DNA of 64,000 nt, taken from Stereum hirsutum FP-91666 SS1. Its lineage: Eukaryota > Basidiomycota > Agaricomycetes > Russulales > Stereaceae. Below the pieces are notes generated by a model. The model made no database searches. It was not told the origin of the DNA and saw only the letters and a program-made list of their open reading frames with translations. The stretch lies in assembly GCF_000264905.1 (NCBI RefSeq), contig NW_006763146.1:439587-503586 (forward strand), written 5' to 3'. Each line of letters opens with the position of its first letter. The first letter of the stretch is position 1. Positions 147 to 56,505 of the stretch are shown here, piece by piece. Made by a program: the position numbers and the translations under genes.

Positions 147-212
147 AGGGCGTCGACCTTGCCGTGGTCCAGGGGCTCAGTACCTCCTCGGAGGGAAGCC
201 AACAGACGCTCG
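147..212 (+). ncRNA. Structured module copy 1
   Basis: The outer arms GGCGTC and GACGCTC pair imperfectly. The GACC/GGTC hairpin has a 7-nt loop. The terminal CCTC/GAGG stem has a CTCG loop, flanked by GGCT/AGCC. A GGTGCGT donor-like site follows directly. Confidence 0.5.
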
Positions 213-500
213 AAAGGTGCGTTTCCTTCTACTCAGTATGTCGCTGATTTCTTCTGGATTCTCCTGCAGGAATCACGGGTGATGTCCGACACGAAACTCA
301 TAGATGCCCACAAGTATTGATCTGTGAGTATTCCCTTTCGATTCGCGCATGCCAGTAACTACGCTGACTTCCTCCTCAGTTCTCCTGCAGCTGTGTGATT
401 GCGTGAACGTGAGAGACTGGCGTTGACCTGCCTTCAACAGCAGCGCCCTCGGCACAACCTCGACACCGGGCCCCAAGAGCTTCAAGACCGGTCCCCTGGT

Positions 501-567
501 AGAGCGTCGACCTTGTCGTGGTCCAGGGGCTCTAGTACCTCTTCGGAGGGAAGCCAACAGACGCTCG
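501..567 (+). ncRNA. Structured module copy 2
   Basis: The outer stem GAGCGTC/GACGCTC is perfect. The terminal hairpin CCTC-TTCG-GAGG has a cUUCGg tetraloop, one of the most stable RNA loops. GGCTCTAG replaces GGCTCAG of copies 1 and 3-6. A GGTAGGT donor-like site follows. Confidence 0.55.
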
Positions 568-1003
568 TGTGGTAGGTATGCTAACCTGTGAGTTCCTCCC
601 CAATCTCGTTCCCCTATAGCTTTGACTGACGTTCTGTGTAGTTTTATTTCAGGGCGGTGCGTGGCAGTAAGCTCAAGACGATCGACGCCCTGACCCTCAA
701 CACTCGGGAATGATGACGAGTCTGGTCGACGACTCCAATCAAGCACGACACATCAACACCGGCGGTGATCTCTGGGGCGCCTTGGGCTGGGTCTTGGCTG
801 GTCTCTGGGTCTCAGGTGTGTTGGGTCTCTTCATTTACTGGGTCTTTTCGTCTGCTGGGTATCTTCGTCTGATTGGCCTCCTCATTCGCTAGGTCTTGTG
901 GGCTTGCTGTCTAGGCTGCTGGGTCTCGTGGGCTTTCTCTCTAGGTCTCTGGGCTGAGGCTGGGCTGGCTAGGGCTAGGCGACATCGACCTCGACCTTAC
1001 GAC

Positions 1004-1140
1004 CGAGCTCAAGCACGACATCGACATCGCTCACGACCGGGCTCAAGCACGACTTCGACCTCGCTCACGACCGAGCTCAAGCACGATATCGACATCGCTC
1101 ACGACCGAGATCAAGCACGACATCGACACCGAGCTCCAAC
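1004..1140 (+). repeat. 34-bp minisatellite
   Basis: About 3.5 copies of a 34-bp unit begin GCTCAAGCACGAC and end CTCACGACCG, at 1007, 1041, 1075 and 1109. The unit length is not a multiple of three, so it would shift any reading frame. A shorter cognate lies near 3000-3090 in the second block. Confidence 0.75.
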
Positions 1141-1164
1141 GAGCTTCAAGACCGGTCCCCTGGG

Positions 1165-1230
1165 ATAGCGTCGACCTTGTCGTGGTCCAGGGGCTCAGTA
1201 CCTCTTCGGAGGGAAGCCAACAGACGCTCG
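1165..1230 (+). ncRNA. Structured module copy 3
   Basis: The outer AGCGTC/GACGCT pairing is retained, and the terminal CCTC/GAGG stem has a TTCG loop. The frame that is open in copy 2 has a TAG here. It is followed by GGTACGT. Confidence 0.55.
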
Positions 1231-1478
1231 GAAGGTACGTTTCTCTCCTTATGCTATGTCACTGATTTGGTTTAGATTCTCTTCCAGGCGTTTCGGGCTG
1301 TGGTGAGTTTTCTACTCTCGTTCACTCATATAGTTTATTGATATATCGCGCTTAGGTTTCTATATAGGTGTGTGAGTGTGAGTAAGTAAGACCGACGCTC
1401 TGCAACAGCAACGTCCTCGCCAGCCTCAACATCATCTCAAGATACGATTCACCTCAACAGCCTCAAGATCCCCTTGAC

Positions 1479-1544
1479 AGAGCGTTGACCTTGTCGCGGT
1501 CAGGGGGCTTAGTACCTCCTCGGAGGGAAGCCAACAGACGCTCG
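1479..1544 (+). ncRNA. Structured module copy 4
   Basis: The 5' arm AGAGCGTT pairs with GACGCTC through a G-U pair. The hairpin loop is CTCG. An upstream GACGCTCTG at 1394-1402 could compete for the 5' arm. Followed by GGTGCGT. Confidence 0.5.
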
Positions 1545-1838
1545 TAAGGTGCGTCTCTCTCCTTGTATTATTCCACTTATTTCCTGTAGATTCTCTTACA
1601 GGCGTGCGGTTGTGGTGAGTCTTCTACTCTCGGTCTTCTATACATTTCACTGACGTTCCGAACTTAGTTTTCTTCATAGGTGAGTGCGTATGAGTGTGAT
1701 TTAAGGTAGGCCTGAGTCAAGGTAGGTGCGTGAGTGAGTCTGAATGTAAGTAACGGTAGGTCTGAGTATTGAACGGTAGGTCTTTTTCTAGGCGTGAGTG
1801 TGAGTGAGTCAAGGTAGGTCTGTGTTCCTTCCGACGCT

Positions 1839-1854
1839 CTGCTTGCGAAAGCAG
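1839..1854 (+). ncRNA. GNRA-loop hairpin upstream of module copy 5
   Basis: CTGCTT and AAGCAG flank a GCGA tetraloop, giving a perfect 6-bp stem with a GNRA-class loop. The same hairpin occurs at 2165-2180, before copy 6, at the same spacing. Confidence 0.55.
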
Positions 1855-1873
1855 CATCGTCCTTCCCCTTGGA

Positions 1874-1939
1874 AGAGCGTCGACCTTGCCGTGGTCAGGG
1901 GGCTCAGTACCTCCTCGGAGGGAAGCTAACAGACGCTCG
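1874..1939 (+). ncRNA. Structured module copy 5
   Basis: AGAGCGTC/GACGCTC outer stem and CTCG terminal loop. GCTAAC replaces GCCAAC, so the inner GGCT/AGCC stem keeps only a G-U-containing version. Preceded by the GNRA hairpin and by GACGCTCTG at 1833-1841. Followed by GGTGCGT. Confidence 0.55.
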
Positions 1940-2199
1940 CAAGGTGCGTCTTTTTTCCTTATATTATGTCGCTGATTTGTTTTAGATCATGTTACAGGAT
2001 TCGAGTGTGGTTCTGGTGAGTCTCCTAATTCCGTTTAACTATATCTTTTATTGATGTTCCGTGTCTAGTTTTCTTTAAAGGTGCGTGAGTGTGAGTGTGA
2101 GTGTGAGTGTGAGTATAGGTAGGTGCGTGAGTGAGTGTGAGTGAGTAAAGGTGGGTGCGGTGCTCTGCTTGCGAAAGCAGCATCGTCCTTCCCCTTGGC

Positions 2200-2265
2200 A
2201 GAGCGTCGACCTTGTCGTGGTCAAGGGGCTTAGTACCTCTTCGGAGGGAAGCTAACAGACGCTCA
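2200..2265 (+). ncRNA. Structured module copy 6
   Basis: AGAGCGTC/GACGCTC outer stem and TTCG terminal loop. The GNRA hairpin lies at 2165-2180. Followed by GGTACGT. Nearly the same as copy 5 in layout. Confidence 0.55.
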
Positions 2266-2544
2266 TAAGGTACGTCTCCTGATCCTACTTCTGTCACTAT
2301 TTTTCTCTTACAGGAGTGGTTTCCAGCACGAAACTCATAGATGCCCGCGAGGAACACGATCGATCTGTGAGTATTCCCTTTCGATTCGCCCATGCCAGTG
2401 ACCACGCTGACACCATCCTCAGTTTTTCTACAGCTGTGTGACTGTGTGAACGTAAGAGACCGGCGTCGACCTGCCTTCAACAGCAGCGCCCTCGACAAAA
2501 CCTCGACACCGGGCCCCAAGAGCTTCAAGACCGGTCCCCTGGGA

Positions 2545-2610
2545 TAGCTTCGACCTTGTCGTGGTCCAGTGGCTCTAGTACCTCCTCTGAGGGAAGCCAA
2601 CTGACGCAGG
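2545..2610 (+). ncRNA. Structured module copy 7 (degenerate)
   Basis: The outer arms (AGCTTC and TGACGCAG) no longer pair well. The inner hairpin keeps CCTC/GAGG with a CTCT loop. This is the second-block counterpart of copy 2. Confidence 0.4.
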
Positions 2611-3101
2611 GGTGGTAGGTATACCAACCGGTCAGTTCTTCTTCTATTCTCGTTCATCCATACCTTCAACCGACGTTCTGTGCTTAATTTTCTTCATAGG
2701 CCGTGTGTGGGTGTTCGTCAGCTCAAGACGATCGACGCCCTGATATTCAACACTCGGGCACGACGACGAGTCCGGTCGATGACTCCATTCAAGCACGACA
2801 TCAACGGACGGTGGTCTCTGGGGTATCTTGGGCTGGGTATCCTGGATCTCTTGGTCACTGGGTCTGCTCTCTCTCTGGGTCTCTTCTTCTGCTAGCCCTC
2901 GCCGTCTTGTTTTCTAGGTTTCTGGGTCTCGAGAGCTGGGTCTCTAGGTTACTGGGCTGTGGCTGGGGTGGCTAGGGCTAGGCGACATCGACGTCGACCT
3001 CACGAACGAGCTCAAGCACCACATCGACATCGAACTCACGAACGAGATCAAGCACGACTTCGACACCGGGCTCCAAGTGCTTCAAGACCGGTCCCCTGGG
3101 G

Positions 3102-3177
3102 AAGCGTCGACCTTGTCGTGGTATAGGGGCTCTAGTACCTCAGGGTCTGATCCTCTGAGGGAAGCCAACAGACGCTA
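3102..3177 (+). ncRNA. Structured module copy 8, lengthened terminal hairpin
   Basis: An insertion in the terminal hairpin preserves pairing: CCTCAG now pairs with CTGAGG, and the inserted GGGTC can pair with GATCC. The outer AGCGTC/GACGCT stem is retained. GGTGAGT follows at about 3190. Keeping the stem through an insertion supports selection on structure. Confidence 0.5.
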
Positions 3178-24091: not shown

Positions 24092-24564
24092 TCACCTGTA
24101 AGCCGCGACCTTCCCGCTGAACGTTCCGAGGTACCATCCCAGAATCAACCCTCCTAGTCCATCGTACAGGAAAAGACCTAATAGAGCATTTCGGTTTTTG
24201 TACAGCTTCGCATCCTCCTTGCCCATAGTGATCCACTTAAGACCCGCCAGACTTGCAAGCAGTACTCGGACGGGGGCGCTCGCATGAAGAAATTGATTTT
24301 CTTCCATGGGCATGTATGATGTTGCAATATCTATTTTGAAGGAATACGGCGCGATTTTTTTTATCAGGTAAGCATCGCGGAAAATAGGATATGTCTCATT
24401 TACGTACATGCCATTCCAAGCGCAATCGTCGTGATACCGAGTGTGGAAGTGTCTTCTGGGGCTTTCGGGGTGGGTTTGGCGAGAAACATGCCACACCCGA
24501 GAGCGGAGAGGCCAATGGCGTGCAGAAGGATTGGCCACGGGAGAAGTATTGGATAAAATAACAT
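24092..24564 (-). CDS. Small multi-pass membrane protein of unknown function
   Basis: Two exons (24408-24564, 24092-24330) encode 131 residues. Segments PILLPWPILLHAIGLSALGCGMFLA, TLGITTIALGMAYIATSYM, VRVLLASLAGLKWI and NALLGLFLYDGLGGLILGWYLG look like four membrane helices. It resembles small fungal membrane proteins of unknown role that I have seen annotated only as hypothetical. It is convergent with the oxygenase gene; only ~240 bp separ the two stop codons. Confidence 0.72.
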
Positions 24565-29043: not shown

Positions 29044-32000
29044 ATGGAAACAGCAGCAGAACATGGTCCTGGCATGAATGGCCAGGGCGTCATAGACGAA
29101 GGCCTAGCAGATACTCCAGTTACCTCGACACCTCCTCCCAACGAAAACAGCGAGCCCAATAACCCCATACACCACGACGCATCTTTAGCTTCAGCACCAT
29201 CACGCCCAGCGACGCCGAGTACCGCGCCACAGTCCGCCACTACTCCCATACCACCACCACCGTCCAACCAGGACGCCCAACCAAGCGGTGGCGAACGCGT
29301 GCTCAACGTATCCGATGCGCTCAGCTACCTTGATGCGGTCAAGATCCAGTTCCATGATAAACCGGAGGTGTATAATATATTCTTGGATATCATGAAGGAG
29401 TTCAAGAGTCAACAGTGAGTTTTTCCGTCTTTTGCGTATGGGTGCTGGACGGAATGGGGCGGAAAGTAGACACCTCAATGCAGAATGAGGGAAGGTGGGT
29501 GATACACAACTTGCGCCCGCATATATGCGCGTACATCGGTCGAGCTCTTGAGATAGGGCTTCTTTCAGGGTCGTGCCTTCGCGCGATAGTTGTACAGTGA
29601 CGAGTGCTTCTCATGCCCCATCCCAAGGGCAATTGAACCACTCCATACAATAAAGAGCAGTTTCCTTTACGCTTTGGCGGCACACATCAACGTTGGTCGG
29701 ATCGTGTGGCGACGCCACACGATTGTGCGGCCTTGAACTTCATTCCATATGTTGGTTTGTCCTATTCGTCCAAATCCGCTATTTAAGCGCATGTGTGCGC
29801 TTTGCAGACCGAGTATGTGAAACTGAGGCTCTAACTGAACAGCGTATATCCACATCGTTGTTCGCTGGTACTGGGGCGCACAAATAGAGCGCCGCGCAGT
29901 TTTCGATGAATAGGACGGCTGCCTACATCGGTACAATACTGTACTGCCATACCATGTCATCGCCGAAATGGCCACACTGCTCGAAGGTGGTGACGCCAAA
30001 TTTTTACCCAATATCTCTTGATATCGCTTGGAATGCATCGAGGCTCATTTTACTGTCCACGCATGCCACCATGCATTGCCGCACCACTTTCCCATCTGCT
30101 CTGCGTCCTCTGTTCTGTGCTTGTCTTCTTTTTCATTTTTGTGCAAAGCGGTCAGAGCCCCTTCTTGACGCGGATGGACTAAGTCTGTACTGTCTTTCCC
30201 CAGCACTCAGATTCATCCTGAGATTTTTGTCCCCCAATATTCGCGTTCTGATCATGATTACTATTCCAGCATCGACACACCAGGTGTCATCGCCCGTGTC
30301 TCTGAGCTTTTTCACGGCCACCCTGCCCTCATCCAGGGTTTCAACACCTTCCTTCCGGCAGGCTACCGCATCAATGTTGGCCTCGAAGACTTTATCACCG
30401 TAACCATGCCCGACGGTCAGATCATGCACCAGGCGCCCACAAACGGCCATCACCCTTCTACTGCACCCTCCGCCCACCCTCCTCTATCCTCCGAAGAAAT
30501 GCCTCCCCCGTCTTTACCTCTCACTTCGGCGGACATCGAGATGGGCTCACCGTCATTACCGCCTGCCCCGGCGCCGTATATAGGCTCTGGCTCTGGCTCC
30601 GGGACAGGATCGGCCCGCGTCGCAATTGGAATGGGCGTGGGCGTCGGTATGGAGCATGGGATGCCACACTCTGAGGTGGAGAAACAGGGATTGGGCCCCG
30701 CGATGGATTATGTGCAGAGGATTAAGACGCGGTTCAGTCATGATCCAGATACTTATAAGCAGTTCTTGGAGATCTTGTCGAATCATAAATCGAATTCGAA
30801 CGATGTATGTCTCGTTTTCTTTCATCCTTCACATCCCTCGTCTTTTCCTATTCCTCTCCCCTCACCGTCTTTTTTTTCATCTCACTCGCGTCGTTGTGTC
30901 ACTGGTCCTAACGCGCTCAGTTCCAGTTCCGCGACCAGACGGAAGTGTACAGAGAGATCGAACGCTTATTCAAAGATGCTCCCGACCTCGCCGCCGCCTT
31001 TCGCGAGTTTATGCCTCTGACGACCGGAGGTGCACCCGGGGGGTCCGGCATACAAGATGGAGATGGAGGCGAAGACGGTGGATTGCAGGGAATGCTGGTC
31101 GAGAGGGAGCGGGAGAGACATTCGCGGACGAGGAATGGGACTCCGGCCGAGCGTGGTCCTGGTTCGCATGGTCCTGGTGGGAGGGCGGGAAGTAAGAGGA
31201 AGCAGCCGGAGAGTGTGGCTGGGACAAGTGTGCCAGCAAAGAGGAGAAGGAAGACTGCGGCGGATAAGGAGAAAGAAAGGGAGAAGGAGAGGGAGAAGGA
31301 GCTTGCTAAGGCGAAGGTAGCTCGAATGATCCCCTTTTTCTTTTTCCTCCCTTTTGTGATACATAGCTGAGTATGTTGTGGTTCAAAGGTGAAGAAGTCG
31401 AAAGAAAAAGCGAGCGTGGCCGCCGACACGGCTTCGTTCTCCCAATACGCACCTTCACCTCGACAAGCATCTCGCGGCCACCCCCCCAGCCACGTCCACA
31501 ACCACCTCCATCCCCAATCCCAAATTCAGTCCCAATTTCTGCCCCCCTCCACGCCACCCCACTCTCACACAATGTATGCCCCCGACATGCCCCTCTCTGC
31601 CCTTTCCGGCTCACCGGCAATATACCTCTCTGCGCCCGACGAATCACAATTCTTCGACAGCGTCAAACGCGCGCTGAACTCTCGCGAGACGTACAACGAG
31701 TTCTTGAAGACCATCAATTTGTTCACGCAGGGATTTATCGACAGGGCGAGGTTGGCGAAAAGTGTTAGGAGTTTTATTGGGGAGAGTGGGGAGCTGTGGG
31801 GACAGTTTAGGGAGATTGTGGGGTGGGATGAGGGGGCGGAGAGAAGGGAGATGGAGAGGGAGGTAGGGGCGATGGAGGCGGCGATGGGGGGAGGAGGGAT
31901 AGGGGGTGGTGGAAGAATGTTTATGGTGGGATTGGATAGGCCGAGTAAGGAGGAGTTGAACGTGAGATATGGGAGCTATAGGCGGTTGCCTGCGGATGTA

Positions 32001-34541
32001 AGCTCTTTCTATCTACGACACAAAGCTCGATATTGACGAAACACTATATCGTATCACAGGAGATCAACCAGCAATGCTCCGGCAGGGACGAGATGTGCAG
32101 GCAAGTCCTTAACGACGAGTGGGTCTCCCATCCGACTTTCGCGAGCGAAGACTCGGGTTTCTTCACTCAGAAGAAGAACATCTACGAAGAGGCTCTCCAT
32201 CGCTCCGAAGAAGAACGCCACGAATACGACTTCCACCTCGATGCCATCGCACGTACGATCGGCGTCCTTGACCCCCTCGACCGCAAGAGCGCTCAAATGT
32301 CCCCCGAAGAGCGCGCCGCCTGGAAGCTCAAACCCAACTTTGGGGGATCGGGAAAAGCCATCCATCAGCGGATCATCAAGAAGATCTACGGGCGCGAGGC
32401 AGGCCTCGAAGTCATCGATGCGATCCAGCACTCCCCAGGCTCCGCTATCCCTGTCGTTGTCCCTCGATTGAAACAAAAGGAAGAAGAATGGAAACGCGCA
32501 CAGAGGGAATGGAATAAAGTCTGGCGAGAGGTCGACGCGCATAATTATTACAAAGCGCTCGACCACCAGTCGATCACGTTCAAAGCCGCAGACAAGAAGG
32601 CGCTCACGTCCAAGGCTTTCGTCAGCCAGATCGAGGCGGTGATGGAGGAACAGATGGCGAAACGGGCGATGCTCGTCGATCCGTTATTCGCGAGGGCGAG
32701 GCCGAGACATCAATTGGAGTTTGAGCTGGCAGATGAGGGGGTGTTGATGGACTGCTTGAAGTTGACGAGCTCGTTCGTGGCGAGAATGGGGTCGGGCGGG
32801 AGCGGGGGGAGCGGGAGTGGCAGCTCGGCAGGGCAGATGAGAATGGACGCGGAGAGGAAGAAGTCAGTGGAACTCAGGTTGTTGAACGTTGTGAAGACGT
32901 TCTTCATGTTGTCAGATGACTGGGTCAAATCTGGGTCTGGGACGAGTGGGCAGTCAGTGTTCCAGAGGGGGGCTGAGCATAAGGAGATTGTACATGACAA
33001 GACTACGGAGGGAGAGGCAGGTGATGCATCGGATGCGAGTGGCAGTAATCCTGCGTCGAGTGGGTCGAGAGTACTTTCCGGAAAGCCAGCGGATTTGAGG
33101 AAGAATCTATTGAAGAACGAGCAGGCGAAGAGGTCGAGAGGGCAGGCTGGGCAAGGCCAGTCGCCTTCGATGTCAAGATTACCTTCTCCGACGTTACTTG
33201 GTACTTCGGTCGAGAGAGAACTGCCGCAATTGCTGAGACCACTGGGAGAGGACGATTCCAGTCAGGCCATGCAGCTTGCGGATCTGCCAACTTTGCCTTC
33301 AGGTGGGGAAGAGAGAAGGCCCAACAGACGTCGGTCATTCTTCACGAATACCTGGTTCTATACTTTGTTACGGCTGATCGAGGTACGTTCGCCGTGGTTC
33401 CTCCTTATTGTCACTATAGTGTATCTTACATTGAATAGGTCCTGTACTCTCGCCTTGATACATTCAAAACTCTCTCCGCCGAACTGTGCGACTTCCAAAC
33501 GTCCAAAGAGGCCGCTAACACCCTCGGCCTCGCCATGCCTCCGCCTGGTTCTGATCAGGTCACGCCTACACAGTATTACGTGCTTTTCCTCGAGACGTGC
33601 GAGAAACTGTTCGACAATCAGCTCGATGTACCCGCTTTCGAGGATCAGATGCGGGGGACGTTCGGTTTGCAGGTTAGTTTTCCCTCATTTCCCTAAATGC
33701 GTTGGGTGGTGTACTGATAAATGATTTGGTTGGTTGTAGTCGTACAAGGCTTTCACGCTGGATAAGGTTATTGCGGCACTCATCAAGCAGGTCCAAGGCT
33801 GGGAGCAGGATTCAAAACTTGACAAGATATCGAAACTCCTTTTAGATGAACGTCAGATCGAGAACCCGACGGCCGAGGATCGCAAGATCTTCCGAAGGAA
33901 GGCTGAGGAGATCATAGGTCCTGAGGAAAATTTGTTCAGTGTAGACTGGGTAGGTAGCCTCAACTTTGCCTGAAAACTATACATTTGTCCGAGCTAACGT
34001 TTCACTTGCAGCATCCCGAGTCGAAGATGATGACTTTCCAGCTGCTTAGCAAAGATGGGTCTAGTTTAGACGACGCTGAAGTCTTGACGGGTCGATGGCA
34101 GTCATACGTCGCTTCTTTTGTCTCGGTACGTTTCTAAACTTGTCCTCGGGTGTGCACTACTGGCTAACATCGTTTGTAGGAAACGGCCACGAAGGACTTG
34201 CCCGTCTCGAAACTCCGTCGTCCTTTCCTCCGCCGGTACGTATCACCCTGTATTGTAATTCACATGTATGCGTCTCATCGTGATTTTTCACCAGGAATCT
34301 TCCTGTAAAGCCGAAAACCCCAGACCTCGTCGCTCGAGGTGCCCTTGAGATCAAAGTCTGCGTCCGAACCTATCGCCTCTTCTTCGTCTCGAATACGGAG
34401 GACGTTCTGTGGCGGAGATCGGAACCTGGAGAGTATGATAAGGGGAAGAAGCGATTGGAGGCCAGGAATGAGGTACGGAGGCAATGGTTGAAGAAGATGG
34501 ACGAGGAAGGTAATGGGGAACCCACGAGTGCGTCTGGGTGA
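29044..34541 (+). CDS. SIN3: SIN3 transcriptional co-repressor scaffold
   Basis: Ten exons (29044-29414, 30270-30804, 30921-31316, 31389-31997, 32060-33382, 33439-33672, 33740-33949, 34012-34125, 34180-34235, 34295-34541) give 1,364 residues, the usual size of fungal Sin3. PAH1 lies at about 86-165 ([33 protein letters not shown]...[19 protein letters not shown]). PAH2 is at about 266-336 and PAH3 at about 519-582. The histone-deacetylase interaction domain starts at ~638 ([22 protein letters not shown]). The Sin3 C-terminal domain covers ~1079-1340 ([27 protein letters not shown]). The PAHs bind repressor peptides and the middle recruits an Rpd3-type deacetylase in the nucleus. Intron 1, 855 nt long, splits PAH1 and is far longer than the others (50-120 nt). 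Confidence 0.96.
29415..30269 (+). other. Unusually long SIN3 intron 1
   Basis: 855 nt between GTGAGT and TTCCAG, inside the PAH1 coding region. It contains a 23-bp near-perfect palindrome at 29701-29723 (arms ATCGTGTGGCG and CGCCACACGAT around a single A). No open frame with motifs. It may hold an old insertion or a regulatory site. Confidence 0.6.
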
Positions 34542-52266: not shown

Positions 52267-55077
52267 TCATGAAGTCTCCATCCCGCTCGGCTCCTCCTTC
52301 ACCTGCACGCCCTGTCCCTGCCTCCTCAAACTCCTCGTCGCAGGTCTTCCCCTCTCCCCACTGCTCTCCTTCCCAATACCCTCACTGCCCGGCGAATCCG
52401 CCACATCCATCCCATTCTCTCCCTCCTCTCCCTCCTGACCATCACCATCCCCGTCAGCTCCAGTCCCCATCCCCATCTCACTCCCCTCCATCCCGTCCTC
52501 TCCCAGATCCATCTCATCTCCCTCCGCCACATCATGCAACCTCCCATTCCCATTCCCATTCCCATTGCCCATCTTCCCCGCCTTCCCGTTGCTATTGTTA
52601 TACGACGCAGGAATAAGCCCCGACAAATCCGGGACTTCAGAATGCAGCATCAGTCCGCCCATATCGTCCGTCTCTCCCGTCTCCGATTTGTTTGCCCCGT
52701 TGGCATTGCCGTTGAGCATTCCAGAAGAGGTGATGAGGGAAGACGGAGAGAGGATTTTTCCGCCGGTTTGGAGTTGCGCTTCCAGTTCGCGGTTGCGGCT
52801 CGCTTGGGCGGAGACGAGCTGTTGGAGGTACCTATATGATGTCGATCGAGTCAGCTTTTGGTTCGTCTGGAAGTGGCGAGAGAACGAAGGGAAGGTGGGG
52901 ATGAAGGAGCAGAACGCACCGGATATACTCCACACTCTTCCTCAAAATCATCCCCTTATTCGCCTTGACCACGCCATCCCCGCCCGCCTCGCCCTTCTCG
53001 TCCTCCTTCGGCGAGCCCGTCGAAGCCGGCTGGGCGAGTGGAGGCGCGAGGTTGCCGTAGAGGATGTCTTCGGTGGTTGGGGAGAGTGGTGGCTGGGATG
53101 CGGCTGCAAAGGGAAGAGGTGGTCAGTCTGATGTTCGTGGGAAGAAAGAAGGGGGGTGGGTGGAAGGGCGATGTATGCGTAGAGGACGATGCATGCGATA
53201 AAATATGAATATACGCGTTATGAGCCATATTTGCGTTCAGAAGCCAGCACACGATACATGCGTTACAAGTGTGCATATAACCATATATGTGTTCAAAATG
53301 CAGCGCACGATATATGCGTAGATGTCGTTGTATGCGGTTAAAGATAGATATACGCGTTGTAAATGTGCATACACGCCATATATACGCTCAGAAACCCGAC
53401 ATATGCGCCCAAACCACGCATATATACGCTCAAAATTGCGAATATGAGCTAGAAGACGGCCATATGCGTCACGGCCGTTCATACCGCATTTCCAAACACG
53501 GGTCGCGCCGAGCGTCCCTCACAGCAGCACATTTAAAACCAGGGACTCGTCCCTCACAGCGGCACAAGAAAGGACCTCGTCCCTCACAACACGTCGAAGG
53601 ACTCAAGAGACTCGCAACACGTCGAAGGACTGAAGAGACTCACCACTAGGATCGAGCATACACTCCGGAATGAGCGTCGCAAGCTCGCTGATCTTCTCAT
53701 TGATATTATCCCTCCGCCTCCTCTCGACCGCATTATGCGACTCGCGCCTCCTGCGCCTCTTCTCGTTCGCGAGCATCGCCCTGGACCTAAGGTCAGTCTA
53801 TACATTTTCACCACTCACATTTCCCTTGCGAAAGAGAACACGCACTGTTTCGCCGCCGCGTCCATAACGCCGCCATTCTGCGCCGGACTCTGGTCCCGCA
53901 TACCCCCCAGGCCGTTCACGTCCTTCGGACTGACGCCCAGCCCTCCCTGGGGCGTCCCAAAGGGCCCATAACCGCCCCCGCCGAGACTCTCGGGCGTAGG
54001 CAGGCTGAATTCTTGACCGTGTCCGCCACCGTGTCCGCCTGCGCTTCCGGGGGGCATGAACCACCCGCTCGTCGTACTGCTGCTGAGCGAGTGCAACGAC
54101 ATGGGCGAGACGGGCATCGTCGGCGTGCCCCGATGAGTCGAGCCCGAGTGCGACGGGATAAGGATCGCATGTGGATGCGGGGGTTGTTGTTGCTGTTGTT
54201 GTTGTCCCTGTGAGGAGAGATGGGAGGAGAGCGAGGAGTGCCGGGGGGGCGATGTGGAGGAGATGCTGCCCCGTTTGGCGCGTGTGTTTCGGGCCGGACC
54301 GCCGTGGGTGGAGGGGGGCTCACCGAGACTGGCGAGGGCGGATCCTGTGTGGTCTCGCGAACGAGAGCGCGAGCGGCCAGGGGCGGAGGCGGGGCTGGGG
54401 GAGTGGTGCGACCGGCTGAAGGAGTCGATCTGGTGCTGGTAGGACGAGGGCGGGGGCTCGTGGGGGTCGTAGCGGAGGGAGGATGACAATGCGGGGAGGG
54501 TGGAATTAAAGTGCGGGGGTGGGCCGGAGGTGTGGGGTGATGTGGGGTTGTTGCCCCCGTTGGAGGTGGGCGAGTACGGGTCGTGGAAGGAGGACGGGTG
54601 GGCGAGCGAGGGCAGGTCAGGGCGGTGGTGTGTCTGCGAGGGCAGCGAGAAGCCGTTGTTGTGGTGTCCGCCGGTGTTGTGGTGGTGTGAGCTCGGGGCG
54701 GAGATGTCGAAGATGTTGTGTCGGTAGCCTTGGCTGTCGTACGCCCCGCTGCCGTTGACGTGGTGCTCAGGCGCGTCCGGCGAGTGCGTTGACCGCTCGT
54801 GCGACTGGTGGTGGCCGTGGTTTGGCGCGGGCGAGTGTGCCATCAGGCTTGCGAGCTCGTCGCCAAAGTCCATGTTGGGGTCGTTCGCGGACTTGCGGAA
54901 AGGGTCGTTGATGAAGTGGGTGCCGATGCTGAACATGCTGTTGGGGTCGAACGCGTGGCCGTTGGGGGACGTCGCGGACGGTGGCGGGGAGGGGTTCGAG
55001 GGCGGGGGAGACGGCAAGTGGAAACCCTCCTGGCGGACCTGGGGCTTGTAGGTGTTGTTGGAGGGAAAGAAAGACAT
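52267..55077 (-). CDS. bHLH transcription factor with polyQ and long HLH loop
   Basis: Four exons (53846-55077, 53644-53786, 52920-53103, 52267-52831) give 707 residues. The first ~410 are disordered, rich in His, Ser, Pro and Gly, with a QQQQQQQ tract (54181-54207) and many HH pairs. The basic region and helix 1, at about 417-455, read KRRRRESHNAVERRRRDNINEKISELATLIPE. His, Glu and Arg at the usual contact positions predict CACGTG E-box binding (inference). A ~55-residue Pro/Gly loop, itself cut by a 540-nt intron, precedes helix 2, ANKGMILRKSVEYIRYLQQLVSAQASRNRELEAQL, which runs on into a leucine-zipper-like stretch. The tail has an NGNGNGNG run, an acidic region and an SUMO-like VKEE. It acts in the nucleus; target genes unknown. 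Confidence 0.92.
53104..53643 (-). repeat. Repeat-filled intron 2 of the bHLH gene
   Basis: The 540-nt intron contains many copies of ATATGCGT-like or ACGCATAT-like octamers (about 53180-53470). Near 53515-53600 there are four CGTCCCTCACA repeats. At its donor end lies a 26-bp tandem pair (ACACGTCGAAGGACT...AGAGACTC, 53590-53645). The tandem pair duplicates the splice donor itself: one copy gives GTGAGTCTC, the other GCGAGTCTC. Confidence 0.6.
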
Positions 55078-56505
55078 GATGGGGGGACGACTGGGGCGGC
55101 CGAGAGTGCGTCTTTGTGGGGCGATCAACAAATGAAAACAAGATGCGTGAGTACGTAGGAAGTCGTAGGCGTCCAATGGCGGCGGTCGTAGCGCGGTACG
55201 TCGAGCAGAAGGACTATGTATCGCTCCCCTCCTTTCGGGGTCTCCGGTCCCTCGCCCCCAAGTCCGTCCCTCGCCCCGCCACAACGGCTCGGCCCCCCCG
55301 CAATCCATCCTCCAAGGCACACTCCCAAGTCTTCCTTTTCCCCACACCGCTTCCCCCTTTCCCCCTTCCTCGCCCCTCCTCTCCCTGCCCTCCCTCTGTC
55401 CCCAGCCACACGCGGTCCCCCACAGACAGACGCTGAACAAAGCGACCGGCCCTGGTGTCAACGTTCTCCCCGCCAGACAGCCCCGTAAGTGTATGTCCGA
55501 AAGCCCGCAGGGCCCGGCTCGGCTCTTTCAATGATCTCGTTTACCACCACATCCCATTCCAGGCCTCCTCGCCAATAGTGAAACACCATGACAAATCGAC
55601 GGAACTTCCGTTCACGCGAAAAACAAACTCAAAAAACACAGACAAGAGATCGTAAAGCGTCATAGAGCGCTGTCAAACCCTCGCGAGTGAACGCTCGAAC
55701 CTGCGCGGGCGGCAAGTTTCCCCCGTCGACGCCAGACGCAGACCTACCCCAGACCATAAATGGTAATACGTCCGAGTGCGGAGCCCCAGATTCAAAGCAC
55801 GATGGTTCATAAATAAGTTCTACAGTACCTAGTATTTCCCCGCACCCCGCACCCCACAACTGCTCGGTAACTTATTATTGTACTCCCCGTCGGGTTCGGA
55901 TGGTGACGAGACGGATATGGATATGGATAACCTCTGGATTACTGAGTGGACGATAAAAAAATGAGAGAGCAGTGTGATTCAGAGTTACACATTGACAATC
56001 GCCGACATTTATTCTCTCTCTCCTCCCCCTAGATCTCTTGCACTCTCCTCGCCTCTCCTCTCCGAACTAACCATCTCCTCTCCGAACTCACCACATCCCC
56101 CGCTCATACCCAATAACACCACGCGCTCGCAGCTCGTATCACATCCCTCCCTACATAACTTACCTACGTACCTATCATACCTCCCTCAAATCGGATTCAT
56201 CCCTCGTATTATGGTCTCCCGCCGGCGTCGCGCGGGCCCGAAGCATCTTTCTGCCTCCTTCCTGCCTCCCTATGTAAAGGTTCCCCCTGTCGACGCTTCC
56301 ACTTCCTTCCATGTGTAAGCACTTACTTACTTATCCTCGATCCTCGCTCGTCACCATCCCCATCCAAGAAGGAGGAGAAAGAGAAAGAGAAGGAGGAGAA
56401 GGAGGAGAAGAACTGCGCAACGCACCAATCGGCATCTTTCGATCTGGTTCTGATCAGCATCGGCCAATTGCAGTCGTGCGTGCTTCAATGCTTGGTTTAA
56501 GTACT
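55078..56505. other. Promoter region of bHLH gene and gene-poor spacer
   Basis: C/T-rich on the plus strand (55240-55440), thus purine-rich when read with the bHLH gene. No TATA box and no supported gene. A purine tract (GAGAAAGAGAAAGAGAAGG) lies at about 56370-56410. Confidence 0.4.

Follow-up and report, generated by a model that had tools for sequence, protein, structure and literature searches.

Eight related modules at the head of the window

The window, a 64,000-nt stretch of the genome of the basidiomycete Stereum hirsutum FP-91666 SS1 (NCBI RefSeq assembly GCF_000264905.1, contig NW_006763146.1, positions 439,587 to 503,586 of the forward strand), carries near its start eight related RNA modules, which very probably are ribozymes of the hepatitis delta virus (HDV) type in the variant form known from fungi; the assignment comes from our analysis of their anatomy and covariation, and self-cleavage would be a property of the class. 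The host genome (46 Mb, 38 contigs) is rich in copies of the module, most of which stand in same-strand arrays beside splice signals. Among named database entries, the host's RPB2 fragment comes nearest to agaricomycete sequences, with 93% identity to Marasmius sp. AFHP31 over 73% of the query and 96% to Mycoleptodonoides aitchisonii over 79%. An earlier note on this DNA, made from its letters without database searches, had pointed out eight + strand copies, and a covariance model built from 85 genome sequences, the eight window copies among them, matched exactly these in the 64 kb when run with cmsearch (E 2.3e-24 to 6.9e-18). A search for a 17-nt core that tolerated as many as 3 mismatches gave 11 matches in the window, namely the eight copies with 0 mismatches and three places elsewhere with 3 each, and shuffled sequences gave a mean of 1.00 and a maximum of 4. 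The putative ribozymes, with the parts of copy 2 and two accompanying stretches, are as follows.

139 to 211, +: copy 1 (lineage A), predicted cut 138/139
217 to 269, +: intron-like stretch behind copy 1, AAG/GTGCGT...CTGAT...CAG, from sequence and pattern statistics, presumably spliced
493 to 566, +: copy 2, predicted cut 492/493
493 to 499, +: copy 2, P1 5' strand CCCCTGG, pairing with CCAGGGG at 523-529; C523, in the seventh pair, is available to P3 as well
502 to 508, +: copy 2, P2 5' strand GAGCGTC, partner GACGCTC at 560-566
509 to 523, +: copy 2, P3 hairpin GACC-TTGTCGT-GGTC, whose loop L3 bears the HDV-signature U and G (PMC3386971)
530 to 554, +: copy 2, J1/4, loop E (AGTA...GAA) and P4 arm, ending in the catalytic-type C of J4/2
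1157 to 1229, +: copy 3, predicted cut 1156/1157
1235 to 1287, +: intron-like stretch behind copy 3, AAG/GTACGT...CTGAT...CAG, from the same kind of evidence, presumably spliced
1470 to 1543, +: copy 4, P1 in the form CCCCTTGA/TCAGGGGG, predicted cut 1469/1470
1865 to 1938, +: copy 5, predicted cut 1864/1865
2191 to 2264, +: copy 6, with a compensated P1 (CCCCTTG/CAAGGGG), predicted cut 2190/2191
2536 to 2609, +: copy 7, partly degenerate, with one P1 and two P2 mismatches; fails the core descriptor given below
3093 to 3177, +: copy 8, with a long P4 and a P3 of only 3 bp, predicted cut 3092/3093; fails the descriptor

In each module the helices run in the order P1-P2-P3-P1'-P4-P2', which, once crossing pairs are allowed, is the HDV topology of a nested double pseudoknot. 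P1 is formed by the 5'-end CCCCTGG (CCCCUGG in RNA) with the CCAGGGG located after the P3 hairpin, and is crossed by P2, in which GAGCGTC pairs with the 3'-end GACGCTC; the GACC/GGTC hairpin (P3) lies between the P1 and P2 strands, and the CCTC-NTCG-GAGG arm (P4) behind them. The AGTA...GAA flanking this arm reads as a loop E motif, AGTA standing opposite GAA with each of the seven letters kept in 81-85 of the 85 copies of alignment A2 (see below). P1.1, the contact of L3 with J1/4, consists of one Watson-Crick pair, which is standard in 120 of the 122 distinct copies used for pair counts. The pair at the cut site is C-G in 118 of these copies and U-G in 1, and is unpaired in 3. At the P2/P3 junction a C occurs in 107 of the 122, facing a G in 105 of them, and U-A in three copies, so that this C may be read either as an extra nucleotide or as a member of a seventh P2 pair.

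The earlier note had found P2, P3 with its 7-nt loop, the P4 tip and the enlargement in copy 8, all of which are as it described them, with variation among the copies, but it had missed the P1 pseudoknot and set HDV aside. It also placed the start of a real repeat at 147; because the P1 5' strand pairs across the hairpin with CCAGGGG, the module begins at 139, 8 nt earlier. The GGCT/AGCC arm that it proposed had to be given up: 17 of the 85 aligned copies have its C-G pair broken, and 183 of 500 shuffles reach its covariation score; the same letters are instead accommodated by P1, P1.1, the loop-E base pair and J4/2. Within the window, copy 7 (2536-2609) appears to be shedding P1 and P2 pairs and is possibly a dying ribozyme among intact ones. 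A 34-nt tandem repeat occurs at 996-1131, within the spacer separating copies 2 and 3.

Covariation and conserved letters across the genome

An nhmmer scan of ten genome stretches and the window gave 98 matches, with the duplicate stretch L017 excluded, and 85 of these were aligned with MAFFT (alignment A2). The 13 that were not aligned comprise five duplicates of aligned sequences, five matches that are incomplete or bear an insertion or deletion, and three with one additional full-length sequence in common; all except L012 near 5,100 recur in the larger set of 133 copies that the covariance model search returned from the genome sequence scanned. That number is a lower bound, because further pattern matches, for example two on contig 19 near 91 kb, lie outside the scanned sequence. 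For the pair counts, the weak rows L051, L027:1167, L012:2798 and L016:1735 were dropped and identical rows merged, which left 122 distinct copies; the second letter of L3 assigns 97 of them to lineage A and 25 to lineage B.

On A2, 96.3% of the cells of a 27-pair structure are paired, and slid partners reach at most 49.5%. Doubly changed cells number 62 versus 17.7 +/- 3.3 in shuffles, and none of 500 shuffles reaches this value; changes on both sides were seen in all six helices counted. Covariation, which the earlier note had named as a check on its proposal, is present among the paralogues of the host genome. A2 even understates P1, because MAFFT shifts the P1 5' strand by one column in CCCCTTGG copies; counted on the distinct copies, the P1 pseudoknot is paired in 118-122 of 122 at each of its seven positions. 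Compensated pairs, counted over both lineages, are as follows: the second pair of P1 is C-G in 101 and U-A in 16 copies, the sixth is G-C in 101 and U-A in 17, P1.1 is G-C in 95 and U-A in 24, the second pair of P3 is A-U in 95 and G-C in 25, and the second pair of P2 is A-U in 91, G-C in 19 and U-A in 1. The loop-E base pair is C-G in 86, U-G in 19 and U-A in 17. Lineages A and B differ in a compensatory manner in P1.1, P3 and P1, and rough trees built without the tested columns give about 1-7 changes of Watson-Crick type per variable pair, several pairs having changed repeatedly.

The letters that catalysis would need are conserved to the same degree as the helices. L3 has a U in 122 of 122 distinct copies and, five apart from it, a G in 121 (the copy without G is L048), and J4/2 has the catalytic-type C in all 122, A as its third letter in 122 and A as its fourth in 120. 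A J4/2 of the pattern C-N-R-A, with its catalytic C, is typical of the HDV class. The modules differ by 10.3% and the spacers by 22% (151 long alignments, overlapping in content). In a comparison of two homologous arrays, only 3 of the 19 indels have a length divisible by three, which bears out the remark of the earlier note that indels between copies shift the frame, and a protein-coding repeat was rejected on this count. Its general description of a structured, ribozyme-like, non-coding repeat is backed by the covariation and the indels together.

Probable assignment to the fungal variant of HDV-like ribozymes

An HDV core descriptor, consisting of a 7-nt P1, P3, the U and G of L3, C-N-R-A and P2, was found in 119 of the 133 copies and in 1 of 2,660 shuffles. 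In the window it occurs in six of the eight copies and at 24442, 37811, 59077 and 62690, all on the + strand, and nowhere on the - strand; the four lone places are taken as chance matches. The U and G of L3 have been termed a signature of HDV-like ribozymes (PMC3386971), and the fungal variants have been distinguished by three marks: a C-G pair at the cut site, a loop E in part of P4 and, between P2 and P3, one additional nucleotide, most often C (PMC5640933). The first two are present here, and the third is ambiguous for the reason given above. With P1 drawn, the HDV topology and at least two of three fungal-variant marks are in place; the statement of the earlier note that the modules do not match the HDV core, and its suggestion that the RNA could be undescribed, are not supported. 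Two of the published fungal variants, studied as bimolecular constructs, showed rapid self-cleavage (PMC5640933).

The Rfam database contributes little to the assignment, which rests on anatomy and covariation because RF00094, the HDV_ribozyme family, scores below its cut-off. For one lineage-B copy this family was the top-listed one, full length and in register, with 21.1 bits (E 0.17). In the window, Rfam gave zero matches at gathering scores, and its first 4 kb gave one unrelated weak match (E 2.9). A genome-wide RF00094 search below the cut-off does not discriminate, because it rings in 4 of 14 control genomes. With no copy scoring as high as the cut-off of the Rfam HDV model in any search made, the fungal variant is easily missed. 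Among the other identities considered, hammerhead and twister were set aside by comparison with their cores. Six exact matches to the 17-nt core in viral contigs, none with the remaining module, were dismissed as chance.

Several observations weigh against the HDV assignment or limit the evidence for it. Copies 7 and 8 of the window fail the descriptor that the other six pass; the descriptor was drawn up after the copies had been seen; and the topology alone, with the core letters waived, was found in 103 of 2,660 shuffles. The lineage-B match of 21.1 bits is below the gathering cut-off of 50 bits, with a small nucleolar RNA family next at E 0.21, and RF00094 was unlisted for a lineage-A copy, for six short stretches and for the whole genome, as well as for six longer stretches, although these contain the very lineage-B copy that gave 21.1 bits. 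In the rough trees the compensation in P1.1 and in P3 amounts to one event each, and many of the double changes reduce to few events because the copies are paralogues of one genome. One and the same C serves both pair 7 of P1 and pair 1 of P3, so that these two pairs are mutually exclusive, and P1.1 has a single Watson-Crick pair, its neighbouring second position pairing in 1 of 122 copies. Canonical HDV ribozymes, moreover, generally avoid a C at the start of P1 (+1), where the modules have one. The CPEB3 ribozyme likewise has one Watson-Crick pair in P1.1, beside a pyrimidine mismatch, as in the modules here.

The closest known relatives are the fungal HDV variants of Li and Breaker (2017; PMC5640933), with which the modules share the nested pseudoknot, the C-G pair at the cut site and a P4 partly replaced by loop E; the extra P2/P3 nucleotide of those variants would correspond to a C or to part of a seventh P2 pair. 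That set comprises 230 representatives from 26 species with widely variable gene associations, and the main text of the paper has no word beginning with tandem, repeat or copies (PMC5640933); in contrast, the present genome alone has at least 133 copies, mostly in same-strand arrays beside splice signals. The HDV ribozyme (RF00094) and that of CPEB3 have the same topology and the same U and G in L3 (PMC3386971), and the modules depart from both by their C instead of a purine at +1, their loop E in P4 and their scores below the Rfam cut-off. Ribozymes of this class also occur in the R2 and L1Tc/SIDER retrotransposons, and SIDER2 elements carry two HDV-like signatures in tandem (PMC3774820, PMC4035085); there, the ribozyme frees the 5' end of one element, whereas the module clusters are free of the reverse-transcriptase domain RVT_1 within about 60 kb. 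Retrozymes (PMC7761336) resemble the arrays in having self-cleaving ribozymes in tandem in non-coding units, but their ribozymes are of the hammerhead class, whereas here HDV-type modules are set in irregular spacers with intron-like stretches.

Arrays, splice signals and a common leader

Sixteen clusters of two or more modules contain 122 of the 133 copies, each cluster keeping a single orientation, and 11 copies are solitary. Lineage A forms 11 clusters of 5-15 modules, on contigs 2 (two), 3, 10 (two), 12, 15 (two), 16 and 19 (two); two of them (contigs 2 and 15) contain lineage B too, which is otherwise solitary or in twos and threes. Contig 10 has two related arrays, with 12 and 15 modules and about 35 kb between them, in opposite orientation (C10:1254231-1258860, +, and 1293996-1299724, -), like the arms of a large inverted duplication. 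An intron-like signal, defined as a 5' splice site, branch point and 3' splice site starting no more than 30 nt past the ribozyme, follows 78 of the 101 lineage-A copies with enough sequence versus 3 of 26 lineage-B copies, and occurs at 241 of 20,000 random window positions (1.2%). When the weak rows are included under a looser lineage split, the figures become 79 of 104 and 3 of 27, with 72 signals at 5, 7 or 8 nt; in lineage A the 5' splice site is usually found 5-8 nt past the end of the ribozyme. Six of the eight window copies show this pattern, which starts at 5 nt in five of them and at 11 nt in copy 8.

Four arrays are preceded by a TATA-type leader with TATATAAG, about 1.5-1.6 kb upstream of the first module, and a fifth such leader lies on contig 16 (C16:435798), 3,927 nt upstream of the first module of the window and thus outside it. 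The arrays L011, L012 and L018 have only different TATA-like matches, and for L015 the 482 nt examined contain none; the tally excludes the arrays on contig 2 near 836 kb and contig 19 near 204 kb. A further TATATAAG leader, L057 on contig 15 at about 1103 kb, adjoins a run of N, which would hide any array behind it. None of the 29 RVT_1 matches comes closer than about 60 kb to a cluster, and no reverse-transcriptase domain was found in the 10 of 29 window open reading frames (ORFs) scanned with Pfam; on these grounds a retroelement carrier was set aside.

Elsewhere, some 330 nt separate a lineage-B copy on contig 7 (L026:2221-2292) from a downstream ORF at about 2615, which, judged by eye, resembles SAICAR synthetase (ADE1). 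The window also holds a gene of the Sin3-type co-repressor (30169-33721, with PAH and Sin3_corepress domains) and a stretch at 54001-56000 with a G+C content of 0.62, most other bins being near 0.51; a 570-aa open frame that covers part of this stretch has no Pfam match.

From the fold, the catalytic-type letters, the copy number, the same-strand arrays, the adjacency to splice signals and the common leader, all of them observed, we infer a possible course of events, in which the chemistry, transcription and splicing are conditional. The crossing of P1 and P2 would build the nested double pseudoknot, the pairing of L3 with J1/4 (P1.1) would form the active site, and the C that opens the C-Y-A-A stretch of J4/2 would act as the general acid-base. 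By analogy with the published fungal variants and the HDV class, the cut would fall directly 5' of the CCCC of P1 and leave a 2',3'-cyclic phosphate and a 5'-OH. The window locus would then be a non-coding unit of eight same-strand ribozymes, with its leader 3.9 kb upstream and intron-like signals behind six of them, and from this layout its transcript would be a self-cutting RNA that yields short spliceable fragments, each headed by a ribozyme, whose fold may shield the 5' end of the fragment. Since the ribozymes would sit in the exon before the 5' splice site, the cuts would be in exons and each intron would stay whole on one fragment, and cutting and splicing could therefore both finish; the fragments may be trimmed, stable or circular. 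The arrays may be a new kind of non-coding gene, in which a promoter drives a precursor with 5-15 HDV-type ribozymes in 5' splice-site cassettes, and cutting and splicing together give many short ribozyme-headed RNAs or circles, that is, a ribozyme-processed polycistronic non-coding RNA. We put this forward tentatively, as an idea that falls a little short of being probable, and it has to contend with copies 4 and 6 of the window, which fail the intron pattern and have only a GT-site at 5 nt.

Other explanations have to be set beside this one. The arrays would be retrozyme-like elements if their tandem ribozymes released RNAs of unit length, to be circularized by ligation and propagated with a borrowed reverse transcriptase. 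Tandem self-cleaving ribozymes spread over a genome are indeed the retrozyme pattern (PMC7761336), and the cut ends would suit an RNA ligase, but the spacing is irregular (medians of 329-483 nt in arrays that have at least eight modules, and, for example, a range of 239-1,439), the spacers bear intron-like stretches, five arrays share a promoter-like leader, and the RVT_1 matches are remote, in a search that left other reverse-transcriptase families and target-site duplications outside its scope. We therefore hold a retrozyme-like origin to be unlikely.

Slightly more doubtful still is that the fold was kept and cutting lost, the module being a domesticated HDV-fold RNA that serves as a protein-binding or stabilizing domain in a non-coding RNA. 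The C at +1 and the degenerate copies would fit this, many fast-cutting ribozymes in one transcript would be costly, and a ribozyme beside a 5' splice site could be a structural or regulatory element; against it, the letters of catalysis are conserved like the helices, the C of J4/2 without exception, and both of the fungal variants tested cleave rapidly, a C-G at the cut site being typical of those variants as well (PMC5640933). A plain or protein-coding repeat with fortuitous hairpins is very improbable: the copies did arise by duplication, partly in multi-module blocks, and so may have their structure in common by descent, but changes on both sides of all six helices counted, the slid-partner control, the indel lengths and the stronger conservation of modules than of spacers speak against it.

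The ribozyme class is already known, and the spliced tandem-array setting appears to be the new part. In the open-access literature searched, no paper came up that describes HDV-like ribozymes in tandem within spliced non-coding loci of fungi, subscription papers and supplements being outside that search. To our knowledge, the host roles of HDV-like ribozymes beyond viruses and retroelements are mostly open. With more than 100 putative ribozymes, maintained by compensatory changes, in what appear to be dedicated spliced non-coding units, Stereum hirsutum would offer a directly testable case, in which it can be asked whether self-cleavage competes or cooperates with splicing, and what role the products may have.

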